Shown here one piece after another: positions 21,674-30,896 of a stretch of 64,000 bases of DNA (its first letter is position 1; each line of letters opens with the position of its first letter). A model generated the notes under the pieces. That model ran no database searches. It was given only the letters and a program-made list of their open reading frames with translations, and was not told the origin of the DNA. Source of the stretch: Calditrichia bacterium (lineage in GTDB: Bacteria; Calditrichota; Calditrichia; RBG-13-44-9; J075); contig JANQQU010000084.1 of the NCBI GenBank assembly GCA_028284905.1, positions 62,001 to 126,000 of the forward strand, read 5' to 3'. The position numbers and the translations under genes were made by a program.

Positions 21674-23893
21674 TTAAACTGAATACCCGTTCTTATGATA
21701 ATGAGTGCTGCTGCCAATTACCCGCAGCATTTCCTGGCGAATCAGCTCCATATTGAACGGTTTCTTGATGACACCATCAATTACTGCGCCGGCATCTTTC
21801 AGGGAATTATCCGTTTGATTCCAGCCGGTGACGATAAAAATCGGGATTGAGGGATTGATCTCGCGCAGATCCCGTGCGAGTTCTACGCCGTTTACCTTCG
21901 GCATGCTCAGGTCAGCAAAGACCACATCGCACTCGTATTTCTGAAATTGCAGCAATGCTTCCCGGGCATTCGATGCCGTTTTAACGTAGCAGCCTTCTTC
22001 TTCGAGCATCTCTGCTAATGTTTCGCGGACAAAACCTTCATCCTCTACCAGCAACACCCGATAATTCAGGGGCTGGTAAAACTTAGGGCGGTTGCCATCC
22101 GTCGTTATCGCCGGTTCCCCGCTGGCTGGCAGCTCAATCATAAAGATGGACCCCTTGTTAACGATCGAATCGACATAGATCGTTCCCTTATGTCGTTGCA
22201 CGATTTCCAACGCAATATTCAAGCCAAGGCCATTCCCCTGATTGCCCTTGGTTGTGTAAAATTTGTCGAAAATCTTGTGGCGAATTTCCGGGGGGATGCC
22301 GATGCCGGTGTCGCTGACAAAAATGAGGACGTTGTTCTCTTTCAATGTGGTTTGAATGGACAACTTGCCGCCGCGTGGCATGGCATCCAGGGCGTTATTG
22401 ATTAAATTCAGAGCAACTTCCCGAAGCGCCTCAGCATTGCCGTGCACCGGTTTTACAGTGCCCAGATTGAGATCGAGCTCGTAATGAATGCCGCGGGATT
22501 GTGCCTCTCCCTCGAAACGGGGACGGGCAATGTCGACAACTTCCTGGACCAATCCGTTAATGTTGATTGCGGCATCTCCCTTCGGTGATTCTTTCCGGGT
22601 GGCATAGTTTTGCAATCGCTGGATATTCGCGGCACCGTCGCTGGCAGCTTTCAGAATTAATTCCAGATCCCGGTAATGCTCGGATTCGCCGAGATGTTTC
22701 TGCAGCAACTGACCTTTCCCAATAATCACACTGAGGATATTGTTCATGTGATGCGCCGTGCTGCTGGCCAGCTCGCCCATCGTTTTCATCCGTTCCAGAT
22801 GTTTCAGATAGTTGTCATATTTATTCGCCTGTTCCAGCAGCGCTTTTTTCTCAATCAGCTGTGTAATCAGATAATGGATGAATTCATAGCGCAAGATTTC
22901 ATCCGGGGCGGGGCGTTCCTTTTCACCATTGAAGAGAATGACCCAGGCACCGAGATATCGATTGTTGACAACAAAAGGGAATACCAGTGCAGCATCTGCA
23001 GGAACATCTTTCAGCGGTGCGCGAAAAACATCGTTCAGGAAATGATGCTGATTGCTCTGCTGCCAGAATACAGTCTCCGGGGAGTCGAACAAATTGAGTG
23101 GAATGGCAGGAAAGCCCGGCTTTAAACGCAGGCTAATATCGGCATATTCCGCTTTTCCATAGGCTTCGTTTAACAACGCCCAGCGTTGATTTTGCGGAGT
23201 GCCGAGAAAAAGTCCCGTATATTCAGTCGTGGGATGTGCCAGCACAGAAAAAAGAAGCTGGTTGAGGACGCTCTTGATGGAATTGCGGGTCTTTCCCCGG
23301 GGCAGGGCGGTGTCAAATACCCGCAGGCCGCCATTGGATTCCTTCACGTAATCGTAAAGATAAACATTCTCAATTGCCTGGCTAACAACGTTGGTTACCG
23401 TAGTCAAAAATTGTTTGTCCTGAAAGCGCAGAAAGTAATTGTCGTCCTTGTTCCAGACAACAACTGCCCCCAAAACTTTGCTGCCAACATTCATTGGGAT
23501 TCCCAACCAGGCATTGGCTGGTAATGCTCCCTTTTCCAAAGAGAGATTATCGCAAAATTGTTCATAATTATTCGTCAATACCGCCTGACGCTTGGACAGC
23601 ACATAGGTATAAAGGGTTTGGCGATCATTAAATTCTTTTACGGGGACCGCCTGGCGGGAGGCGGCATCATAGGTAAACTTAGTCGGCACCTGCTTGTCGT
23701 GCGATAAGATAATCTCGATCTCTTGCTGACTGTAAATTTTGCGTAGCTCTTCGAAAAACACTGTTAAGATGTTTTTAAAATCTTTTACCGCAAAAATCCG
23801 CCGGGTAAAGGCGGCATAGTAATCGAGTAATAAATCTGAGCCTTCGGCTGTATCCATCAATAGATGCAGCGAAGAAAATTTGTAACGGCTCAT
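21674..23893 (-). CDS. Hybrid sensor histidine kinase (GAF-HisKA-HATPase-REC)
   Basis: A 739-residue cytoplasmic kinase. The N-terminal half (about 1-340) contains one or two GAF-like domains (AWLGIPMNVGSKVLGAVVVWNK; ALVFPFVVNNRYLGAWVILF). The HisKA domain carries the H-box ASSTAHHMNNILSV. The HATPase domain shows the N-box EVALNLINNALDAMPRGG, DTGIGIP and GNGLGLNIA. The C-terminal receiver (about 605-730) has the acceptor Asp in CDVVFADLSMPKVNG and KKPF. It is transcribed divergently from the GTPase operon starting at 24584 and could feed it, but no direct evidence links them. Confidence 0.92.
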   Translation of the reverse strand: MSRYKFSSLHLLMDTAEGSDLLLDYYAAFTRRIFAVKDFKNILTVFFEELRKIYSQQEIEIILSHDKQVPTKFTYDAASRQAVPVKEFNDRQTLYTYVLSKRQAVLTNNYEQFCDNLSLEKGALPANAWLGIPMNVGSKVLGAVVVWNKDDNYFLRFQDKQFLTTVTNVVSQAIENVYLYDYVKESNGGLRVFDTALPRGKTRNSIKSVLNQLLFSVLAHPTTEYTGLFLGTPQNQRWALLNEAYGKAEYADISLRLKPGFPAIPLNLFDSPETVFWQQSNQHHFLNDVFRAPLKDVPADAALVFPFVVNNRYLGAWVILFNGEKERPAPDEILRYEFIHYLITQLIEKKALLEQANKYDNYLKHLERMKTMGELASSTAHHMNNILSVIIGKGQLLQKHLGESEHYRDLELILKAASDGAANIQRLQNYATRKESPKGDAAININGLVQEVVDIARPRFEGEAQSRGIHYELDLNLGTVKPVHGNAEALREVALNLINNALDAMPRGGKLSIQTTLKENNVLIFVSDTGIGIPPEIRHKIFDKFYTTKGNQGNGLGLNIALEIVQRHKGTIYVDSIVNKGSIFMIELPASGEPAITTDGNRPKFYQPLNYRVLLVEDEGFVRETLAEMLEEEGCYVKTASNAREALLQFQKYECDVVFADLSMPKVNGVELARDLREINPSIPIFIVTGWNQTDNSLKDAGAVIDGVIKKPFNMELIRQEMLRVIGSSTHYHKNGYSV

Positions 23894-24583: not shown

Positions 24584-25831
24584 ATGAGTTCGAAGTTAAA
24601 TAAGCAGAAGCAAATACTGGCTTTGCTCAACTCCCGGGACGCTTCGGAGACACCTGATGGAGATAATGATGTTGCCGGGGAGCAGCCGGTGCGCCGGGAT
24701 GAGGAACCGGTAGCGACGGACCGGCTGATCAACCAGATTTTCCATTTTCATAAAAGTATTATTCAGAATATTAATGCAGGATTAATAACGATTAGCCCGG
24801 ACGGCGAAATCACTTTCGCCAACAAAATTGCCGGTCACCTGCTCGGATATGAACCGGATGAAATGCCCGGCCGAAATCTGAAATACTTTTTTAAATCCAT
24901 GGAAAATGCGGAACGCTTTTTTCATACAATCGCGCTGCCCGGAAAGAAAATCGACGACTGGGAGTCGATTTTTATACATAAGAGCAAGAAAGAAATCGTT
25001 GTCGAAATTAATGCCTCACGTTTCGAGGATGTAAAAAACAGTTTTCAGGGCGTTGTTTGTTTATTGCGGGATGTTACCGAAGTCGCGCAGTTACGGCAAC
25101 AGGTGGGAAGAATGGAGCGTCTGGCATTTTTAGGAGAGCTGTCCGCTGGTATTGCGCACGAAGTTCGTAATCCGCTGGCAGGTATCAAAGCATCCACGCA
25201 GCTACTGGAAGACCAGGGAGAGAACCGGGAATTACAGGAAGAATTAATTCGCCGCATCGTCCGGGAGGTGGACAAAGCGGACCGGTTGCTCCAGGAGTTC
25301 TTTAAATTTGCTCGCCCCGCCCGGCCCCAGCCGGCTTTTCACGATTTAACTAATTTACTGGAAAATTGCCATTGGCTGGTAAATACCCGATTAAAAAATA
25401 TGCAAATTCAACAGCATCAGGAGATTGCTAAATCACTCCCGAAAATTTATGCGGATGCATCGCAAATCGAACAGGTATTGCTTAACTTGATGCTGAATGC
25501 AATTGATGCCATGGATGCTGGTGGAACCCTGTCAATACGGGCATACAAGAAGCGTATGCTCCCTTTAAAACAAGGGAAAAAGGACTTTGGTATTCTCAAT
25601 CAACCGTTCGATTATGTGATGATCGAAATTAGCGATACCGGTTCGGGGATCGAAGAAAGTGAAATTGAAAAAATATTCAATCCCTTTTATACTACGAAAT
25701 CCGGGGGGCTCGGACTGGGACTTTCGATCTCCAGCAGACTGGTTGAAGAAAATAATGGCAAAATCGATGTGGTAAGTCACAACGATCAAGGTACAACGTT
25801 TATATTGGCTTTACCTGCTTTTCTACGATAG
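24584..25831 (+). CDS. PAS sensor histidine kinase (NtrB-like), first gene of GTPase operon
   Basis: A 415-residue soluble kinase. An N-terminal linker (1-55, polar) leads to a PAS domain (about 60-175; NAGLITISPDGEITFANKIAG, GYEPDEMPGRNL). Next comes HisKA with H-box GELSAGIAHEVRNPLAG (His192) and a HATPase domain with LLNLMLNAIDAMDAGG, ISDTGSGIEESE and GGLGLGLSI. There is no receiver, unlike the other two kinases in the window, which suits a partner in trans: the single-domain receiver gene starts 31 bp downstream. Start ATG at 24584 has only a weak ribosome site. It is the likely input of the operon ending at 30832. Confidence 0.92.
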   Translation: MSSKLNKQKQILALLNSRDASETPDGDNDVAGEQPVRRDEEPVATDRLINQIFHFHKSIIQNINAGLITISPDGEITFANKIAGHLLGYEPDEMPGRNLKYFFKSMENAERFFHTIALPGKKIDDWESIFIHKSKKEIVVEINASRFEDVKNSFQGVVCLLRDVTEVAQLRQQVGRMERLAFLGELSAGIAHEVRNPLAGIKASTQLLEDQGENRELQEELIRRIVREVDKADRLLQEFFKFARPARPQPAFHDLTNLLENCHWLVNTRLKNMQIQQHQEIAKSLPKIYADASQIEQVLLNLMLNAIDAMDAGGTLSIRAYKKRMLPLKQGKKDFGILNQPFDYVMIEISDTGSGIEESEIEKIFNPFYTTKSGGLGLGLSISSRLVEENNGKIDVVSHNDQGTTFILALPAFLR

Positions 25832-25862
25832 TGGAAATCAGGACGTCTAAGAGGAGTGTCTC

Positions 25863-26234
25863 TTGGGATATTTGAAAAGATTGTTGATTGTAGATGACGA
25901 AGAAACGCTGACGTTTAGTTTGTATCAGACATTTATTACCGCACCAATTGAATGTGAAGTAATAACTGCCGAATCCGGCGAAGAGGCCTGGCAGCGGTTT
26001 GAAGAAAAAGCGTTTGATCTTGTTATAACAGACATATCAATGCCGGGAATGGATGGACTGGCACTCTTGAAGTTGATAAAAGGAAAATCATCTGATACTC
26101 AGGTAATCGTGATAACTGCCTACGGATCTCCGGAAAAGAAAGCTGCCGCGTTTAATTTGGGAGCGGATGATTACATCGAAAAACCGTTTGACATCCACGA
26201 TGTCAAAAGCTTGGTCATTAAAATGTTAGAGTAG
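25863..26234 (+). CDS. Single-domain response regulator
   Basis: A 123-residue stand-alone receiver with the acidic pair in LLIVDDEETL, acceptor Asp57 (DLVITDISMPGMDG), Thr in VIVITAYGSPEKK and Lys in YIEKPFD. There is no output domain, so it must act by protein contact (CheY-like). Start is a TTG placed 6 nt after AAGAGGAG (25849-25856); no in-frame ATG fits better. It lies between its presumed kinase and the PATAN/roadblock gene, which begins 3 bp after its stop, indicating tight coupling. Its target may be one of the PATAN or roadblock proteins, an inference from position. Confidence 0.93.
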   Translation: MGYLKRLLIVDDEETLTFSLYQTFITAPIECEVITAESGEEAWQRFEEKAFDLVITDISMPGMDGLALLKLIKGKSSDTQVIVITAYGSPEKKAAAFNLGADDYIEKPFDIHDVKSLVIKMLE

Positions 26235-26237
26235 AGT

Positions 26238-26894
26238 ATGGCGCTGGTTGGAAATTTAAAAGATTTAAAGCTTGCGAATATTATTCAGATCAATTGCATA
26301 GAACGCAATGTGGCGAAAGTAACTGTTCATAGCAATGATTCGGGCGGTGCGATTTTTTTTACGAATGGCGCCATTGTCCATGCTGAATACGGTCCCTTCG
26401 TTGGAGAGCGGGCGGTTCATGAGATGCTGGCACTGAATGATGGAGAGTTTAAGGTGGAGGCTGGTTTGGAATCGCCAACCCAAACGATTACGCTTCCCTG
26501 GAATTCAGTCGTGCTGGAAGGTCTGCGGTTATTGGATGAGAAAAAGGTCGTCAGCACACCGATTCCCCGGCAACTGTTCAGCATGATTTCCGGCCTTAAG
26601 AATGTTCGCAATGTATTTGTACTGAATTACAATGGACAAATCCTCGAAGGTAAAATTGATGATGAGGTCCATCCATTGTCTTTGACATTTGTCTGGTATA
26701 AACTGAAGAAGATGCTCAATCTTTTCTACTCCGATGTTTTCGAACATATCATGTTGCGCTCCAAGGAAGGATATATTTTTGTCTTCGAACACCGGCCCAA
26801 CCTGATCGTGGTTGAAACCAGTTTGCGGGTAATTACGCCGGAGTTTTCAAAAATGGTCAAGAAGATTTTAAAACAAGTAAATTCAATGAAATAG
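26238..26894 (+). CDS. PATAN (DUF4388) plus roadblock-like protein
   Basis: A 218-residue protein. Residues 1-95 match the DUF4388/PATAN pattern: LVGNLKDLKLANIIQI, GGAIFFTNGAIVHAEYG, GERAVHEMLALNDGEFKVE. Residues about 110-215 look like a roadblock/LC7 domain (SGLKNVRNVFVLNYNGQIL, then a helix and strand rich segment). PATAN domains are found in response regulators and in proteins associated with MglA-like GTPases, where they are thought to bind partner proteins. It begins 3 bp after the receiver gene, so receiver and PATAN may form the switch between phosphate and GTPase signalling. Exact function unknown. Confidence 0.75.
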   Translation: MALVGNLKDLKLANIIQINCIERNVAKVTVHSNDSGGAIFFTNGAIVHAEYGPFVGERAVHEMLALNDGEFKVEAGLESPTQTITLPWNSVVLEGLRLLDEKKVVSTPIPRQLFSMISGLKNVRNVFVLNYNGQILEGKIDDEVHPLSLTFVWYKLKKMLNLFYSDVFEHIMLRSKEGYIFVFEHRPNLIVVETSLRVITPEFSKMVKKILKQVNSMK

Positions 26895-26909
26895 GACCAG
26901 GGAGTTGTT

Positions 26910-27935
26910 TTGCTGCTGCCGAATGGGGTTGAAAAGCATAAAAATCTCAGCACCTCGTTTACGAAGTTTGATCAGCTGTTGCAAGATTTGGGGGAGAACC
27001 GGTTTAGCGGTTACATCAAGCTGAATTTTTGGGAATACGAAGGTGTGCTGGTATTGGATACCGGACGAATGATCGAGGCTTATTCCTCGGAAAAAGACGT
27101 CTATCTTACCGGCGAACAGGCAGTATTGAGGATTTTGAAACGGTCACAGGAACAAGAGGGCAGTATCGAAGTGCATGAGTTGCCAAATGAAATTGCCATT
27201 GCATTGGGATATGCATTCCAGTCTTCCGGATACAAGGAGGACGGCTCCCTGGCGAATTATTCGCTCGGACAGGTTTTCGATTTGCTGGAACGGGAATCGG
27301 TCACTGGCTATGTGGATTTTCAGTTTAGCCGGAAAAAAGGCGCTGGCACTGTCTATTACCTGGAAGGAACGCCGGTTGAAGCAGTGATTATGTCCAATAG
27401 CGGTAAAGTAGTTAATGGCGAGCCGGTCATTCAAAAGTTCTCGGAAATCGGGGAATTCTTTCAGCCGGATGTGAAAGTGCATCGGGTGGCGGAACCAGCC
27501 TCAATCGTAGAAGATCAGGCGTTTATTATTCCCTGGCAGCATCAAAGATATATCGAATTCTGGGGAGAAATCTTCGATTATATCAACCAGTTAATGGTTG
27601 AGCAGCTTAAAAGAAACAAGTTCTATCAGGATGTCCGGAAGATTTGTGCAGAAGTGGCCGATCACTATCCATTGCTTCACGTGGAAAATGGAGACGTGGA
27701 AATCAACGAGTCATTTTTTGAGATCAAACGGATTGTTCATCACCGCACTTTTCGGCAGGGAATTGCCATGGTGCTTCATAAAGCATTACAAATGGCGCCT
27801 GCCAGACGTTTCAAGAAACTAAAAATTCAGGAAATCATTGCCGCAGCGGCCAAAATAGCCGAGAAGCATGATATTCCTGTTGAGCAGGTGAACACGGAAA
27901 AACTGATCGTGCAGATATTCAGAGGGCTGATATAA
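26910..27935 (+). CDS. Protein with two PATAN/DUF4388-like modules and a helical tail
   Basis: A 341-residue protein starting at TTG 26910, 5 nt after GGAG (26901-26904). Two related modules can be seen: about 10-95 (LLQDLGENRFSGYIKL, GVLVLDTGRMIEAYS, GEQAVLRIL) and about 115-200 (LGQVFDLLERESVTGYVDF, GTVYYLEGTPVEAVI). A C-terminal domain (about 215-341) is helical and unassigned. The paired modules suggest a scaffold bridging two partners. The stop overlaps the next start (TAATG at 27933-27937), so translation is coupled. No catalytic motif is seen. Confidence 0.65.
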   Translation: MLLPNGVEKHKNLSTSFTKFDQLLQDLGENRFSGYIKLNFWEYEGVLVLDTGRMIEAYSSEKDVYLTGEQAVLRILKRSQEQEGSIEVHELPNEIAIALGYAFQSSGYKEDGSLANYSLGQVFDLLERESVTGYVDFQFSRKKGAGTVYYLEGTPVEAVIMSNSGKVVNGEPVIQKFSEIGEFFQPDVKVHRVAEPASIVEDQAFIIPWQHQRYIEFWGEIFDYINQLMVEQLKRNKFYQDVRKICAEVADHYPLLHVENGDVEINESFFEIKRIVHHRTFRQGIAMVLHKALQMAPARRFKKLKIQEIIAAAAKIAEKHDIPVEQVNTEKLIVQIFRGLI

Positions 27936-28402
27936 TGGTGCAGCAATACTTTAGCGATTTAACCGAGATCGCCGGCATCGAAGCTGTGGTGATCTTTGAC
28001 AACCAAAACAATATTGTCGATTCCTGGGCATTACCGAAATATAATTTGACGGTGTTCAGCGAATTGGGCGAAACCTTTATGCATGTATTCGGGCTAATCG
28101 AACATCTGGATTACGATATGGAAGAAATCGTTATGCCATTTGACCGCGGGCTTGTTTATGCAAGAAGTCAGGAAAAGTTCTCTATCGTGGTAATCGCCCG
28201 GTTGTCCGTGGAAGTCTCATTGATTCGTCTGGCCTTAAACGTGAACCTGCAAGAATTTCACAACACCCGAAAAGTACGAAGAATTTTGAAAAAACTGCCT
28301 GATCAAAAATTTTATCAGATAAAATCGTCTACACTGGATGATGTGGAGAAGATAATGTTGGAAAATATCCTCGAGGGAGGCGATGACGACGGAGCAGTTT
28401 AA
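27935..28402 (+). CDS. Roadblock/LC7-like protein
   Basis: A 155-residue protein whose first about 110 residues fit the roadblock/LC7 fold (DLTEIAGIEAVVIFDNQNNIVDSWA, then a long helix, then IVMPFDRGLVYAR and FSIVVIARLSVEVSLIRLALN). A charged C-terminal extension follows. Roadblock proteins dimerise and act as GAPs or platforms for MglA/Ras-like GTPases. Its ATG overlaps the previous stop by one base, and its end overlaps the next gene by 20 bp. It differs clearly from the MglB-like protein at 29663, so the operon has more than one roadblock protein. Confidence 0.72.
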   Translation: MVQQYFSDLTEIAGIEAVVIFDNQNNIVDSWALPKYNLTVFSELGETFMHVFGLIEHLDYDMEEIVMPFDRGLVYARSQEKFSIVVIARLSVEVSLIRLALNVNLQEFHNTRKVRRILKKLPDQKFYQIKSSTLDDVEKIMLENILEGGDDDGAV

Positions 28403-28859
28403 AATTCACGAGGATATGATCTTTAAGCTCAGTCAGCGAAGATCGCCTTCGGAAGTGAAATTGAAATCGATGGAATGGGCAATAGTTACCCAGCTGAACG
28501 GGGAAAAGTCCGTTGGTAAAATCGGCGAAACCCTTTCCCTGAATCCAACCGAGACCCTGGTGATGTTTAATCGCCTGATGGAAGAAGGGTTGCTGGAATT
28601 GGTTGGCCTTCCGGAAAAAGATCCATATGCGCCGGAAGCGCTGCTGGATGAAATTGAGTATGCGTTTACAGTATTCGTCGGCCCGGTATCTTCAATTCTG
28701 ATCGAAGACACATTGACGGAGCTAAAGCGGAACCGGAAAAATTTGGAAACGAAGCTGGTAGCTTTATTAGTGGAACTACTTAGCCTGGAAATAACCAGTG
28801 CAGAAAAGCGGTATGAGTTCCAAAAACAAATGCTAAGTAAAATTAAGGGATTGGTTTGA
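28383..28859 (+). CDS. Small operon protein with winged-helix-like and GPxxxxxxxD domain
   Basis: A 158-residue protein overlapping its neighbours at both ends. The first about 80 residues look like a winged helix (WAIVTQLNGEKSVGKIGETL, ETLVMFNRLMEEGLLEL). The rest contains YAFTVFVGPVSSILIEDTLTEL, resembling a small domain often appended to winged-helix or roadblock signalling proteins, in which a G-P-I/V-A/S core precedes an amphipathic helix. It lacks the basic recognition helix of a clear transcription factor, so protein binding is as likely as DNA binding. Function unknown. Its stop overlaps the next start (TGATG). Confidence 0.6.
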   Translation: MTTEQFKIHEDMIFKLSQRRSPSEVKLKSMEWAIVTQLNGEKSVGKIGETLSLNPTETLVMFNRLMEEGLLELVGLPEKDPYAPEALLDEIEYAFTVFVGPVSSILIEDTLTELKRNRKNLETKLVALLVELLSLEITSAEKRYEFQKQMLSKIKGLV

Positions 28860-29638
28860 TGGCAAATTCAAATAGTATGTTAAACAACTTAAGAGTTAAG
28901 ATTAGTCTTTACATATTGATCGGCGCTGTGATTTTCTCTGGCGTGATTATTTTTGTAACGTCACATTTCTTGCAGAAGATTCTTACTGAATCGTTGGTGA
29001 AACAGGGACAAATCGTCGCCAGCAGCATCGCAGAACTGGCTGCGGAAAAAATGATTGATAATGACAAAATTGGTCTGAAAAAAATCTCGGAAAAATTTCG
29101 TTATACGCTCAGCAATGAATACATTATTATCATCGACCCGGAATATAATGTGGTGACGGATTCTTACAATGGCAATATTCCACTGGAACTGACCGATAAT
29201 ACGGTCTATCAAAAGTTCGAGACATCCGAGGTAGAAGGATTCTCCAACGAGCTTCTCGAAATTGGCGGAAATGATATTTACGACGTCATTTTACCGATTG
29301 AAGAAGGATTGCTGGGATTTGTCCGGGTTGGCTTGAAGAAGTCTTTTGTCGACCAGCAGATTCAGGAAACACTGCTTTACATCGGTATCGTTGTCGCTAT
29401 CGGTACGCTGGCAGCAATTCTGGTTGCTTTGATGGTCATCACGGTACAAATTACCCGTCCCGTGCTACATTTGGCAAATGCTGCAAAAGAGATTAGCCTC
29501 GGCAATTTCAATACGCCGATTAACCTGAATATCAAAAATGAATTGAATATTCTCGCCGCCGCAATTGATCGTATGCGGGAAAGTTTAAAAACAAGTTTAG
29601 ACAGATTAAAAACTCGGTCCACGATGGGACGTTTCTAA
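28859..29638 (+). CDS. Membrane sensor with periplasmic domain and HAMP, no output domain
   Basis: I choose ATG 28859 (TGATG overlap), giving 259 residues. Transmembrane helix 1 (about 15-38) is followed by a periplasmic domain (about 40-175; YIIIIDPEYNVVTDSYNG is typical of a single-Cache-like sensor), helix 2 (about 177-203) and a HAMP domain (about 204-256; ITRPVLHLANAAKEISLGNF). Nothing follows HAMP: no methyl-accepting, kinase or cyclase domain. It must signal through another protein, plausibly the roadblock/MglB pair encoded next. This is unusual, since HAMP normally relays to a fused output. Confidence 0.85.
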   Translation: MANSNSMLNNLRVKISLYILIGAVIFSGVIIFVTSHFLQKILTESLVKQGQIVASSIAELAAEKMIDNDKIGLKKISEKFRYTLSNEYIIIIDPEYNVVTDSYNGNIPLELTDNTVYQKFETSEVEGFSNELLEIGGNDIYDVILPIEEGLLGFVRVGLKKSFVDQQIQETLLYIGIVVAIGTLAAILVALMVITVQITRPVLHLANAAKEISLGNFNTPINLNIKNELNILAAAIDRMRESLKTSLDRLKTRSTMGRF

Positions 29639-29662
29639 AATCATTAGAGGGAGACTCTAAGC

Positions 29663-30172
29663 ATGGTACAAGTAAAGAAGTTAAAGGATGGCAGCCGTCA
29701 AATTATTTTAACTGCGAAGCAATTTGATGAGATCACCAAAATCCTGACGGAGCTGGCAGCAAAAACGAAAGCTTCGACAATTTTGTTGGCCGACATCAGC
29801 GGGCAGTTAATTACCCAACGGGGGAATACGGATGAAATCAATACCGCGATTTTATCTGCACTGGCTGCCAGTGACTTTGCTGCGACCTCGGAGATGGCGA
29901 AATTAGTGGGAGAAGATGCAAAATTTAAGTTACTGTTCCATGAAGGTGAAAAACGGAATGTTTATTTATCCAATGTCGGTGATAATTTCTTCCTGGTTGT
30001 TGTTTTTGATGTTAGCGTAACTTTAGGTTTGGTAAGGATTTATACCAAGAAGGCAATTCAGAATCTTTTAAATGTTTTCAAGACTTCCGAAGCTGGGGAC
30101 GATGCAGGCCAGATCCTTGATCAGGACTTTAGCAGTATGCTCGGCGATATGTTGGATGAATCTTTTAAATAA
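29663..30172 (+). CDS. Roadblock/LC7 protein, MglB-like
   Basis: A 169-residue protein with a central roadblock/LC7 domain (about 20-130): FDEITKILTELAAKTKASTILLADISGQLITQRG, ISALAASDFAATSEMAKLVG-like helix, then LSNVGDNFFLVVVFD and a final helix. It is the direct neighbour of the MglA-like GTPase (75 bp apart), the usual MglB-MglA order. In Myxococcus and Thermus, MglB is the GAP for MglA and sets cell polarity. The acidic tail (about 140-169) is extra. Ribosome site GAGGGAG precedes the ATG. Confidence 0.85.
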   Translation: MVQVKKLKDGSRQIILTAKQFDEITKILTELAAKTKASTILLADISGQLITQRGNTDEINTAILSALAASDFAATSEMAKLVGEDAKFKLLFHEGEKRNVYLSNVGDNFFLVVVFDVSVTLGLVRIYTKKAIQNLLNVFKTSEAGDDAGQILDQDFSSMLGDMLDESFK

Positions 30173-30247
30173 CTGTAGATGGCTATAGCGGTATCCGGAA
30201 GTGAAAGATTTTCCGGCATAAATTTTTTAATATGAGGCAAGAAGTCT

Positions 30248-30832
30248 ATGTTTATCAATTGGGCATTACAAGAAATCAACCTTAAGATCGTTTATTACGG
30301 TCCTGGCATGTGCGGGAAAACAACCAACCTGGAATATATTCACTCCAAGCTGGATCCATCGCTAACCGGGGAATTGGTAACCTTGAAGACCAAGGAAGAC
30401 CGAACGATCTTCTTCGACTTTATGCAGATTGAAGTCGGCCGTATCAAAGGCAAGAAACCGAAATTTAACTTATACACTGTTCCCGGACAGGTGTATTATG
30501 CGTCCAGCCGTAAGATTATTCTCAACGGTGTAGATGGCATCGTATTCGTCGCGGATTCTCAGAAAGACCGGATGGAAGGGAATATCGAAACATTGCTCGA
30601 TCTTGAAAACAACCTGATGGCAATGGGGCATTCCCTGGAAACATTCCCCTGGGTGATTCAGTACAATAAACGCGATCTCCCCAATACGGAATCTGTGGAT
30701 ATGCTGCAAAAGAAGCTGAACTTTTTTAACGTGCCGCATTTTGAGTCTGTAGCAATCAAGGGCACCGGCGTTTTTGATTCATTGAAGGCAATCATCAATC
30801 TGGTTGTTCAGCATGTGCAAAAGCAGCTCTAA
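30248..30832 (+). CDS. mglA: MglA-like Ras-superfamily GTPase
   Basis: A 194-residue small GTPase. P-loop GPGMCGKT at residues 18-25, switch I region with TLKTKEDRTIFFDF, the MglA hallmark TVPGQVYYASSRK in switch II, and the guanine-specificity motif QYNKRDLP. These match Myxococcus/Thermus MglA closely in pattern. MglA cycles between GTP (polar, active) and GDP forms and controls motility or cell polarity. It is the last gene of the nine-gene operon and is followed by a good terminator. The neighbouring MglB-like protein is the likely GAP. Confidence 0.95.
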   Translation: MFINWALQEINLKIVYYGPGMCGKTTNLEYIHSKLDPSLTGELVTLKTKEDRTIFFDFMQIEVGRIKGKKPKFNLYTVPGQVYYASSRKIILNGVDGIVFVADSQKDRMEGNIETLLDLENNLMAMGHSLETFPWVIQYNKRDLPNTESVDMLQKKLNFFNVPHFESVAIKGTGVFDSLKAIINLVVQHVQKQL

Positions 30833-30861
30833 TCGGTATTAACAACCCCACCGAATTTACG

Positions 30862-30896
30862 AACGCCTTTGGATGAATTATCCAAAGGCGTTTTTG
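30862..30896 (+). terminator. Terminator of the MglA operon
   Basis: AACGCCTTTGGA (30862-30873) pairs with TCCAAAGGCGTT (30881-30892), 7-nt loop, then TTT-G-TTTT. It ends the operon 30 bp after the GTPase stop. Confidence 0.85.

Follow-up and report, generated by a model that had tools for sequence, protein, structure and literature searches.

In Myxococcus xanthus the output of the polarity GTPase MglA is the pilus and gliding machinery, and operons joining a kinase, a roadblock protein and a GTPase are already known as conservons (PMC4316618, PMC13343842). Some mglA genes were reported in 2014 to be linked to PATAN genes (PMC4316618). The pairing of STAC and HAMP proteins is known from archaea: receptors like Af1503 are effector-less, have nothing but HAMP in the cytosol and are coupled in the genome to STAC proteins, which carry an LGPx(x)A motif, and Af1502 is translationally coupled to its receptor (PMC4834066). 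All of these component kinds stand together in a nine-gene operon at positions 24584-30832 (+ strand) of a 64,000-nucleotide stretch of DNA, hereafter the window, from a Calditrichia bacterium (assembly GCA_028284905.1, 8.55 Mb in 93 contigs; contig JANQQU010000084.1, positions 62,001 to 126,000). With a probability of roughly 0.6, the operon is one co-transcribed module, a variant of the MglA/MglB polarity GTPase with two built-in inputs. Its open reading frames, A to I, and its terminator are:

24584-25831, + strand: A, soluble PAS histidine kinase (PAS, HisKA and HATPase_c; Pfam)
25863-26234, + strand: B, stand-alone receiver of 123 residues (Response_reg, 3.5e-29)
26238-26894, + strand: C, PATAN protein with a roadblock-like C-terminus (DUF4388, 4.9e-18, 65.8 bits, cut-off 25)
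26910-27935, + strand: D, PATAN protein, an optional member (one DUF4388 stretch, 3.6e-7, 30.7 bits, cut-off 25)
27935-28402, + strand: E, divergent roadblock protein (fold and profile; no Pfam match of its own)
28383-28859, + strand: F, winged helix (about residues 1-78) and STAC-like four-helix domain (about residues 84-158), from model, structure match and profile
28856-29638, + strand: G, Cache receptor with two transmembrane stretches and HAMP as sole cytosolic domain (sCache_3_2 and HAMP; Pfam)
29663-30172, + strand: H, MglB-like roadblock protein (Robl_LC7, 2.1e-11)
30248-30832, + strand: I, MglA-like GTPase (Arf/Ras family; Pfam)
30861-30893, + strand: strong intrinsic terminator, a 15-pair stem followed by a T-rich tail

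An earlier note, made from the sequence alone, had described nine genes running in one direction, and all nine were found on the one strand. The distances between them, from A to I, are 31, 3, 15, -1, -20, -4, 24 and 75 bp; thus the upper limit of the 0-75 bp given in that note stands and the lower becomes -20 bp. The stop/start overlaps it listed are present (TAATG at 27933, TGATG at 28857). It also placed a terminator only after mglA; the sole convincing one is indeed there, but a weak hairpin (30195-30216, 7 pairs, poor T-run) occupies the 75-bp gap between H and I and might lower expression of mglA relative to the rest of the operon. As 10 terminator-like sites were found against 7.0 ± 2.9 in shuffled sequence, only the strong terminator at 30861-30893 is trusted. 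Carriage on a plasmid was considered and rejected, as no DNA match to the locus was found among plasmids.

Profiles of the nine families were compared with the open reading frames of the window and of 59 loci found with the MglA protein as query (60 in total). The best of these loci are titled Calditrichota or Calditrichaeota; differing titles of metagenome-assembled genomes (Deltaproteobacteria for L012, Caldisericaceae for L025, Nitrospirae for L062 and L065) may be wrong. F and G were both present in 41 of the 60, and within the reach of their contigs these 41 keep the order A B C (D) E F G H I. All families except D were colinear, D being found between C and E in 16 loci and absent there in 20, and H was immediately upstream of I in every one of the 41. 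Kinase A was upstream in 33, window included; seven of the other eight are cut by a contig end (they begin downstream or just upstream of B) and the last is L032. The 19 loci without F comprise three contig-edge cuts (L021, L024 and L067), fourteen others (L047-L049 and L051-L061), L063 and L066.

Whole-genome searches of the phylum gave F in 40 of 40 genomes and MglA in 40 of 40, the latter as a single copy (split over two contigs in G024). When the two lists are read together, 38 genomes have F and MglA on one contig, separated by about 2 kb; in the remaining two (G004 and G036) MglA lies < 300 bp from a contig start and the pair is split by contigs. As the arrangement is repeated across the phylum, the nine-gene order is not due to chance. 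The linkage postulated in the earlier note is therefore real, and unlinking of the kinase and receiver genes from the GTPase gene was looked for in Calditrichota and not found. Mirror-tree correlations (0.43-0.87; seven families, 33 loci) were given no weight, because shared descent alone can produce them.

G has transmembrane stretches at residues 12-43 and 169-207 and ends about 15 residues past HAMP, with no output domain; its start is likelier to be the ATG at 28859 than the listed TTG (28856). In the PDB, its sequence is matched best by Af1503 HAMP constructs (4gn0, 6.4e-7). F and G are adjacent in all 41 MglA-region loci that have F, and their reading frames overlap in 24 of them (counts of G are based on a clean hidden Markov model and on Pfam). 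In a control covering 972 open reading frames of at least 150 residues from the MglA-region loci, HAMP-terminated receptors occurred only beside F (41) or in two D-G-H-I clusters (L048:7500-10585 and L063:7377-10585), where the receptor is likewise output-less.

F comprises 158 residues and has no Pfam match of its own, nor is any Pfam family convincingly matched by its STAC-like domain. The predicted model places four helices after a winged helix (mean predicted local distance difference test score, pLDDT, 91.7; predicted template modelling score 0.58, which makes the placement of the two domains relative to each other uncertain). The helices, at residues 85-99, 103-113, 123-134 and 140-155, form two hairpins and a four-helix bundle as in STAC. 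In comparison with the STAC structure Af1502, 69 residues of the helical part were aligned with a root-mean-square deviation of 2.9 and Z of 6.9; on its own, Z < 8 may reflect a common helix arrangement. A profile of F relatives matched Af1502 with E 0.29, and the STAC-like domain alone gave E 0.082. When the profile was made of 14 operon members of F and 15 of 18 relatives from outside such operons, Af1502 ranked top of 177635 PDB sequences (E 5.5e-4). The GP of the LGPx(x)A motif, located between the first two helices, is invariant, and the alanine is present in > 90% of the rows of the domain profile. F and G fit the Af1502/Af1503 pattern, save for the winged helix of F and a serine in the motif of the window protein. 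Since F has 158 residues and a winged helix and the Af1502 type is a single domain of 60-90 residues, it was classed as a protein containing a STAC-like domain and not as a stand-alone STAC protein. The product called winged-helix-like in the earlier note does have a winged helix, but its STAC-like C-terminus had been overlooked.

The same pairing recurs outside the window-type operon. In the phylum of the KSB1-titled G044 the domain profile had matches in 4 of 82 genomes, and in that of the Nitrospirae-titled G040 in 14 of 198 sampled genomes; 18 F-like loci (L071-L088) were collected; these are partly non-independent, L072 and L077-L079, for example, being close kin. In all 18 the same-strand neighbour of the F-like gene encodes a HAMP protein (Pfam-verified; in L076 a short open reading frame), and no kinase, MCP-signalling or cyclase domain was among the families listed for these neighbours. 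Their sensors are Tll0287-like (12), Mcp40H (4), four-helix (3) and, in others, Cache. Judged by eye, most of these F-like proteins have a PATAN-like N-terminus and five (L071 and L073-L076) also have the winged-helix segment. The pairing of a STAC-like adaptor with interchangeable sensors (Tll0287-like, Cache or four-helix) resembles a general signalling cassette.

Kinase A has no hydrophobic transmembrane stretch, so the soluble PAS kinase proposed earlier holds. Its histidine, N-box asparagine and G1 aspartate are invariant in 34 of 34 alignment rows (one row being the hybrid kinase of L066). In B the acidic pair, phospho-aspartate and lysine are invariant in 31 of 31 rows, with threonine in 30 and serine in one at the Thr/Ser position. 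As all of these key residues are kept, a phosphorelay from A to B is likely. A large soluble hybrid kinase-receiver gene lies upstream of the operon in the divergent direction (21674-23893, - strand), and a minus-strand homologue is also found upstream in L009, L010, L011 and L013.

The DUF4388 (PATAN) family was found in 40 of 40 genomes of the phylum, with several copies in most. The roadblock part of C scored 20.7 bits against Robl_LC7 (3.4e-4), below the curated cut-off of 23. D had been described as a double PATAN protein; Pfam gives a single significant stretch and the doubling was not confirmed. E, in contrast, was rightly called a roadblock protein: its model (pLDDT 89) gave Foldseek matches to LAMTOR, archaeal roadblocks and MglB (7e-7 to 2e-5), its profile matched the PDB roadblock 7f8m at 5e-5, and hhalign of E with H gave a probability of 91. 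H scored 81.6 bits against the NCBIfam MglB (Thermus) model, whose equivalog cut-off is 200. In 15 loci that lack the window-type operon (L047-L049, L051-L061 and L063), mglA is followed by a gene of 120-160 residues that looks like a divergent roadblock. In KSB1 loci this gene was considered as a paralogue of H/MglB and rejected (hhalign probability 1.4 with H and 71 with E).

In a 60-row alignment of I, the G1 lysine, Arg52 (the intrinsic arginine) and Gln81 are each kept in 59 rows, with one gap. Thr78 is a hallmark residue of MglA; at Thr77 of I, in TVPGQ, there are 58 threonines, one serine and one gap. NKxD is present in 57 rows, with three gaps. The window genome has eight other Ras-family matches (contigs C85, C52, C2, C25, C40 and C66), one a single-domain protein of about 180 residues and the rest inside open reading frames of 460-965 residues. 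A gene judged by eye to encode an MFS-type transporter lies shortly downstream of mglA in 33 loci with Calditrichota and KSB1 titles; it is not found in the window.

Taken as one module, the operon would have two inputs. In the first, A would phosphorylate B; lacking an output itself, B should work through a partner, for which the PATAN proteins are the simplest candidates, and gene order and family suggest that phosphorylated B acts on C and D. In the second, G would sense a periplasmic signal and hand the movement of its HAMP domain to the STAC-like domain of F, a transfer proposed because G lacks an output domain and supported by the constant adjacency of the two. Both inputs would converge on the roadblock set C, E and H, which would set the GTP state of MglA, H being, by family, the likely GTPase-activating protein (GAP). 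MglA-GTP may then place some envelope machine in the cell, as its family suggests.

Several observations weigh against this module. Adjacency alone is no proof of a single pathway. With narrower profiles the match of F to Af1502 had E values of 0.08-0.29, becoming significant only once distant relatives were added, and the window F has VGPVSS as its motif, with serine in place of the usual alanine. No F was detected in the D-G-H-I clusters of L048 and L063, L032 has no kinase, and the weak hairpin at 30195-30216 precedes mglA. The kinase pair is also absent from three rearranged clusters outside the phylum, which are taken up below.

The envelope machine might be the type IV pilus, the module controlling its position or activity; this is possible but somewhat doubtful. 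PATAN mediates PilB binding in cyanobacteria, and PATAN-receiver proteins act through PilB in Synechocystis (PMC10519157). MglA drives pilus formation in M. xanthus (PMC11580455), and C. abyssi has a pilus cluster as well as flagellar genes (PMC5317091). PilT-family matches above the cut-off were present in 29 of 40 genomes and flagellin in 27, whereas the module was in all 40, so a pilus-only role is a poor fit, and neither pilus nor flagellum was retained as the phylum-wide output. The pilT-family search gave nothing in G023 at E 1e-3 and traces of 20-23 bits in G012 and G015; all three have the module and no flagellin, and G015 and G023 are > 90% complete, absence in draft assemblies being weak evidence. 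In the window genome there is one sub-threshold pilT-family ATPase, with no evident pilus genes adjoining it (its neighbours were viewed without a family scan), and there is no flagellin and no PilM match; PilM (PF11104) is uninformative, as its matches are mostly weak and partial.

Two pathways might instead share the operon for co-expression, with A and B controlling something else while F and G alone feed the GTPase, or the reverse; this is rather unlikely. It draws on the wider stretches examined around 14 of the 18 outside F-like loci (L089-L102), three of which hold the following:

L097:866-8842: rearranged F-G-MglA-PATAN-roadblock-MglB cluster
L098:1014-8443: rearranged cluster of the same kind
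L099:5464-12253: rearranged cluster of the same kind

F and G come first in these clusters and, with other genes in between, are succeeded by genes for an MglA-type GTPase, a C-like PATAN protein and D-like, E-like and MglB-like proteins; neither kinase nor receiver was seen (contig ends truncate L097 and L098). Thus the seven families C to I are a recurrent set in two gene orders, and the phosphorelay is an add-on and not part of the core: A and B are an add-on in Calditrichota and L062, and L065 also has B. The GTPases of L097-L099 are on a long branch of the MglA tree, and their position was not used. In L097 the genes separating G from MglA include ones for a binding protein of the PBP type and, possibly, for an outer-membrane barrel.

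In L089-L096 and L100-L102 the F-like/G-like pair stands in a stretch that shows no MglA. In L089-L093, receiver and CheY-like receiver genes adjoin the pair, and CheW- and CheA-type (CheA-receiver) genes were family-verified in L089 and L092; these loci possibly encode a chemosensory system fed by an output-less HAMP receptor. Against two separate pathways, the A-B-C order is fixed, with near-zero gaps, across Calditrichota; B, a receiver lacking its own output, directly precedes a PATAN gene; and in L092 a PATAN-receiver fusion is encoded beside the F-like/G-like pair. The joint control of the GTPase by kinase and membrane sensor, proposed in the earlier note, is partly supported: the linkage holds in Calditrichota, but L097-L099 lack kinase and receiver; its membrane sensor is narrowed to G, which would signal through the STAC-like F.

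A bolder reading, which we regard as unlikely, is that G and F, as a split receptor, influence the GTPase cycle with no phosphorylation step: movement of the HAMP domain of G would alter the STAC-like domain of F, and the winged helix of F, together with C, E and H, would be a GAP or exchange regulator of MglA. By structure, this winged helix is most similar to NPRL2/NPRL3 of GATOR1, at Z 10.2 to 8.6; a histone methyltransferase falls within that range (Z 9.0) and FAM91A1 comes next at 8.2. As winged helices are common, this likeness is a lead only. If true, this would be a bacterial receptor-to-small-GTPase route paralleling GATOR1-Ragulator-Rag, and output-less HAMP receptors would gain a target. 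It is very unlikely that F is instead a DNA-binding regulator, making G-F a receptor-to-transcription route by which the GTPase genes are merely regulated, since the winged helix and the weak matches of some F members to MarR or other helix-turn-helix families are outweighed by structural matches that rank NPRL2/NPRL3 (Z about 9-10) above transcription factors and by absence of the winged-helix segment from 13 of 18 outside relatives (by eye), so that DNA binding is not the conserved part of F.

The single module with two inputs can be set beside described systems. A literature search, with subscription papers mostly outside its reach, gave no account of this gene combination or its phylum-wide conservation, nor of a STAC-like/output-less receptor pair in an MglA operon. 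The actinobacterial conservons (CvnA-D) are likewise operons of a histidine kinase, a roadblock protein and an MglA-type GTPase. DUF742, the domain of CvnC, is not among the Pfam matches of the nine operon proteins. Conservons also differ in having four core genes, with CvnA itself a HAMP sensor kinase and no response regulator (PMC4316618, PMC13343842), whereas kinase, receptor and receiver are separate proteins here.

The Af1503-Af1502 pair shares with G and F a receptor with HAMP as its only cytosolic domain, coupled to a four-helix protein with the GP motif (PMC4834066). It adjoins transport genes, whereas F lies in a GTPase operon, adds a winged helix (PATAN plus winged helix in some relatives) and has its gene before that of the receptor. 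The CbrA-type SLC5-STAC-PAS-kinase, too, has STAC interposed between its membrane input and its PAS kinase (PMC13022988), but there everything is fused, with a transporter, in a single protein, whereas the window encodes the membrane receptor, the STAC-like adaptor and the PAS kinase separately. Output-less HAMP receptors have so far had a coupled partner (STAC) and no agreed target. Throughout the phylum the F-G pair has a fixed place in a GTPase operon, and it is met again next to CheA-type genes in other loci, which makes that target testable.

The cyanobacterial regulators PixG, PilG and TaxP2 also place PATAN and a receiver in a motility-control pathway, as PATAN-receiver fusions within chemotaxis-like systems; an MglA-type GTPase is unmentioned in the available part of that account (PMC10519157). 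M. xanthus MglA/MglB/RomR resembles this operon in its MglA-type GTPase and MglB-type roadblock. Both also have an additional roadblock protein, MglC in M. xanthus and E in the window, and a receiver, RomR and B respectively, with a histidine-kinase pathway upstream (PMC10329633). B lacks a C-terminal extension, unlike RomR, and the M. xanthus kinase is the Frz chemosensory system, where the window operon combines a PAS kinase with PATAN proteins and a paired receptor and adaptor. M. xanthus mglA also lies away from the genes of its receiver partners (PMC4316618). The operon thus packs together component kinds that are kept apart in Myxococcus, which would permit a complete MglA circuit to be reconstituted from one DNA segment.

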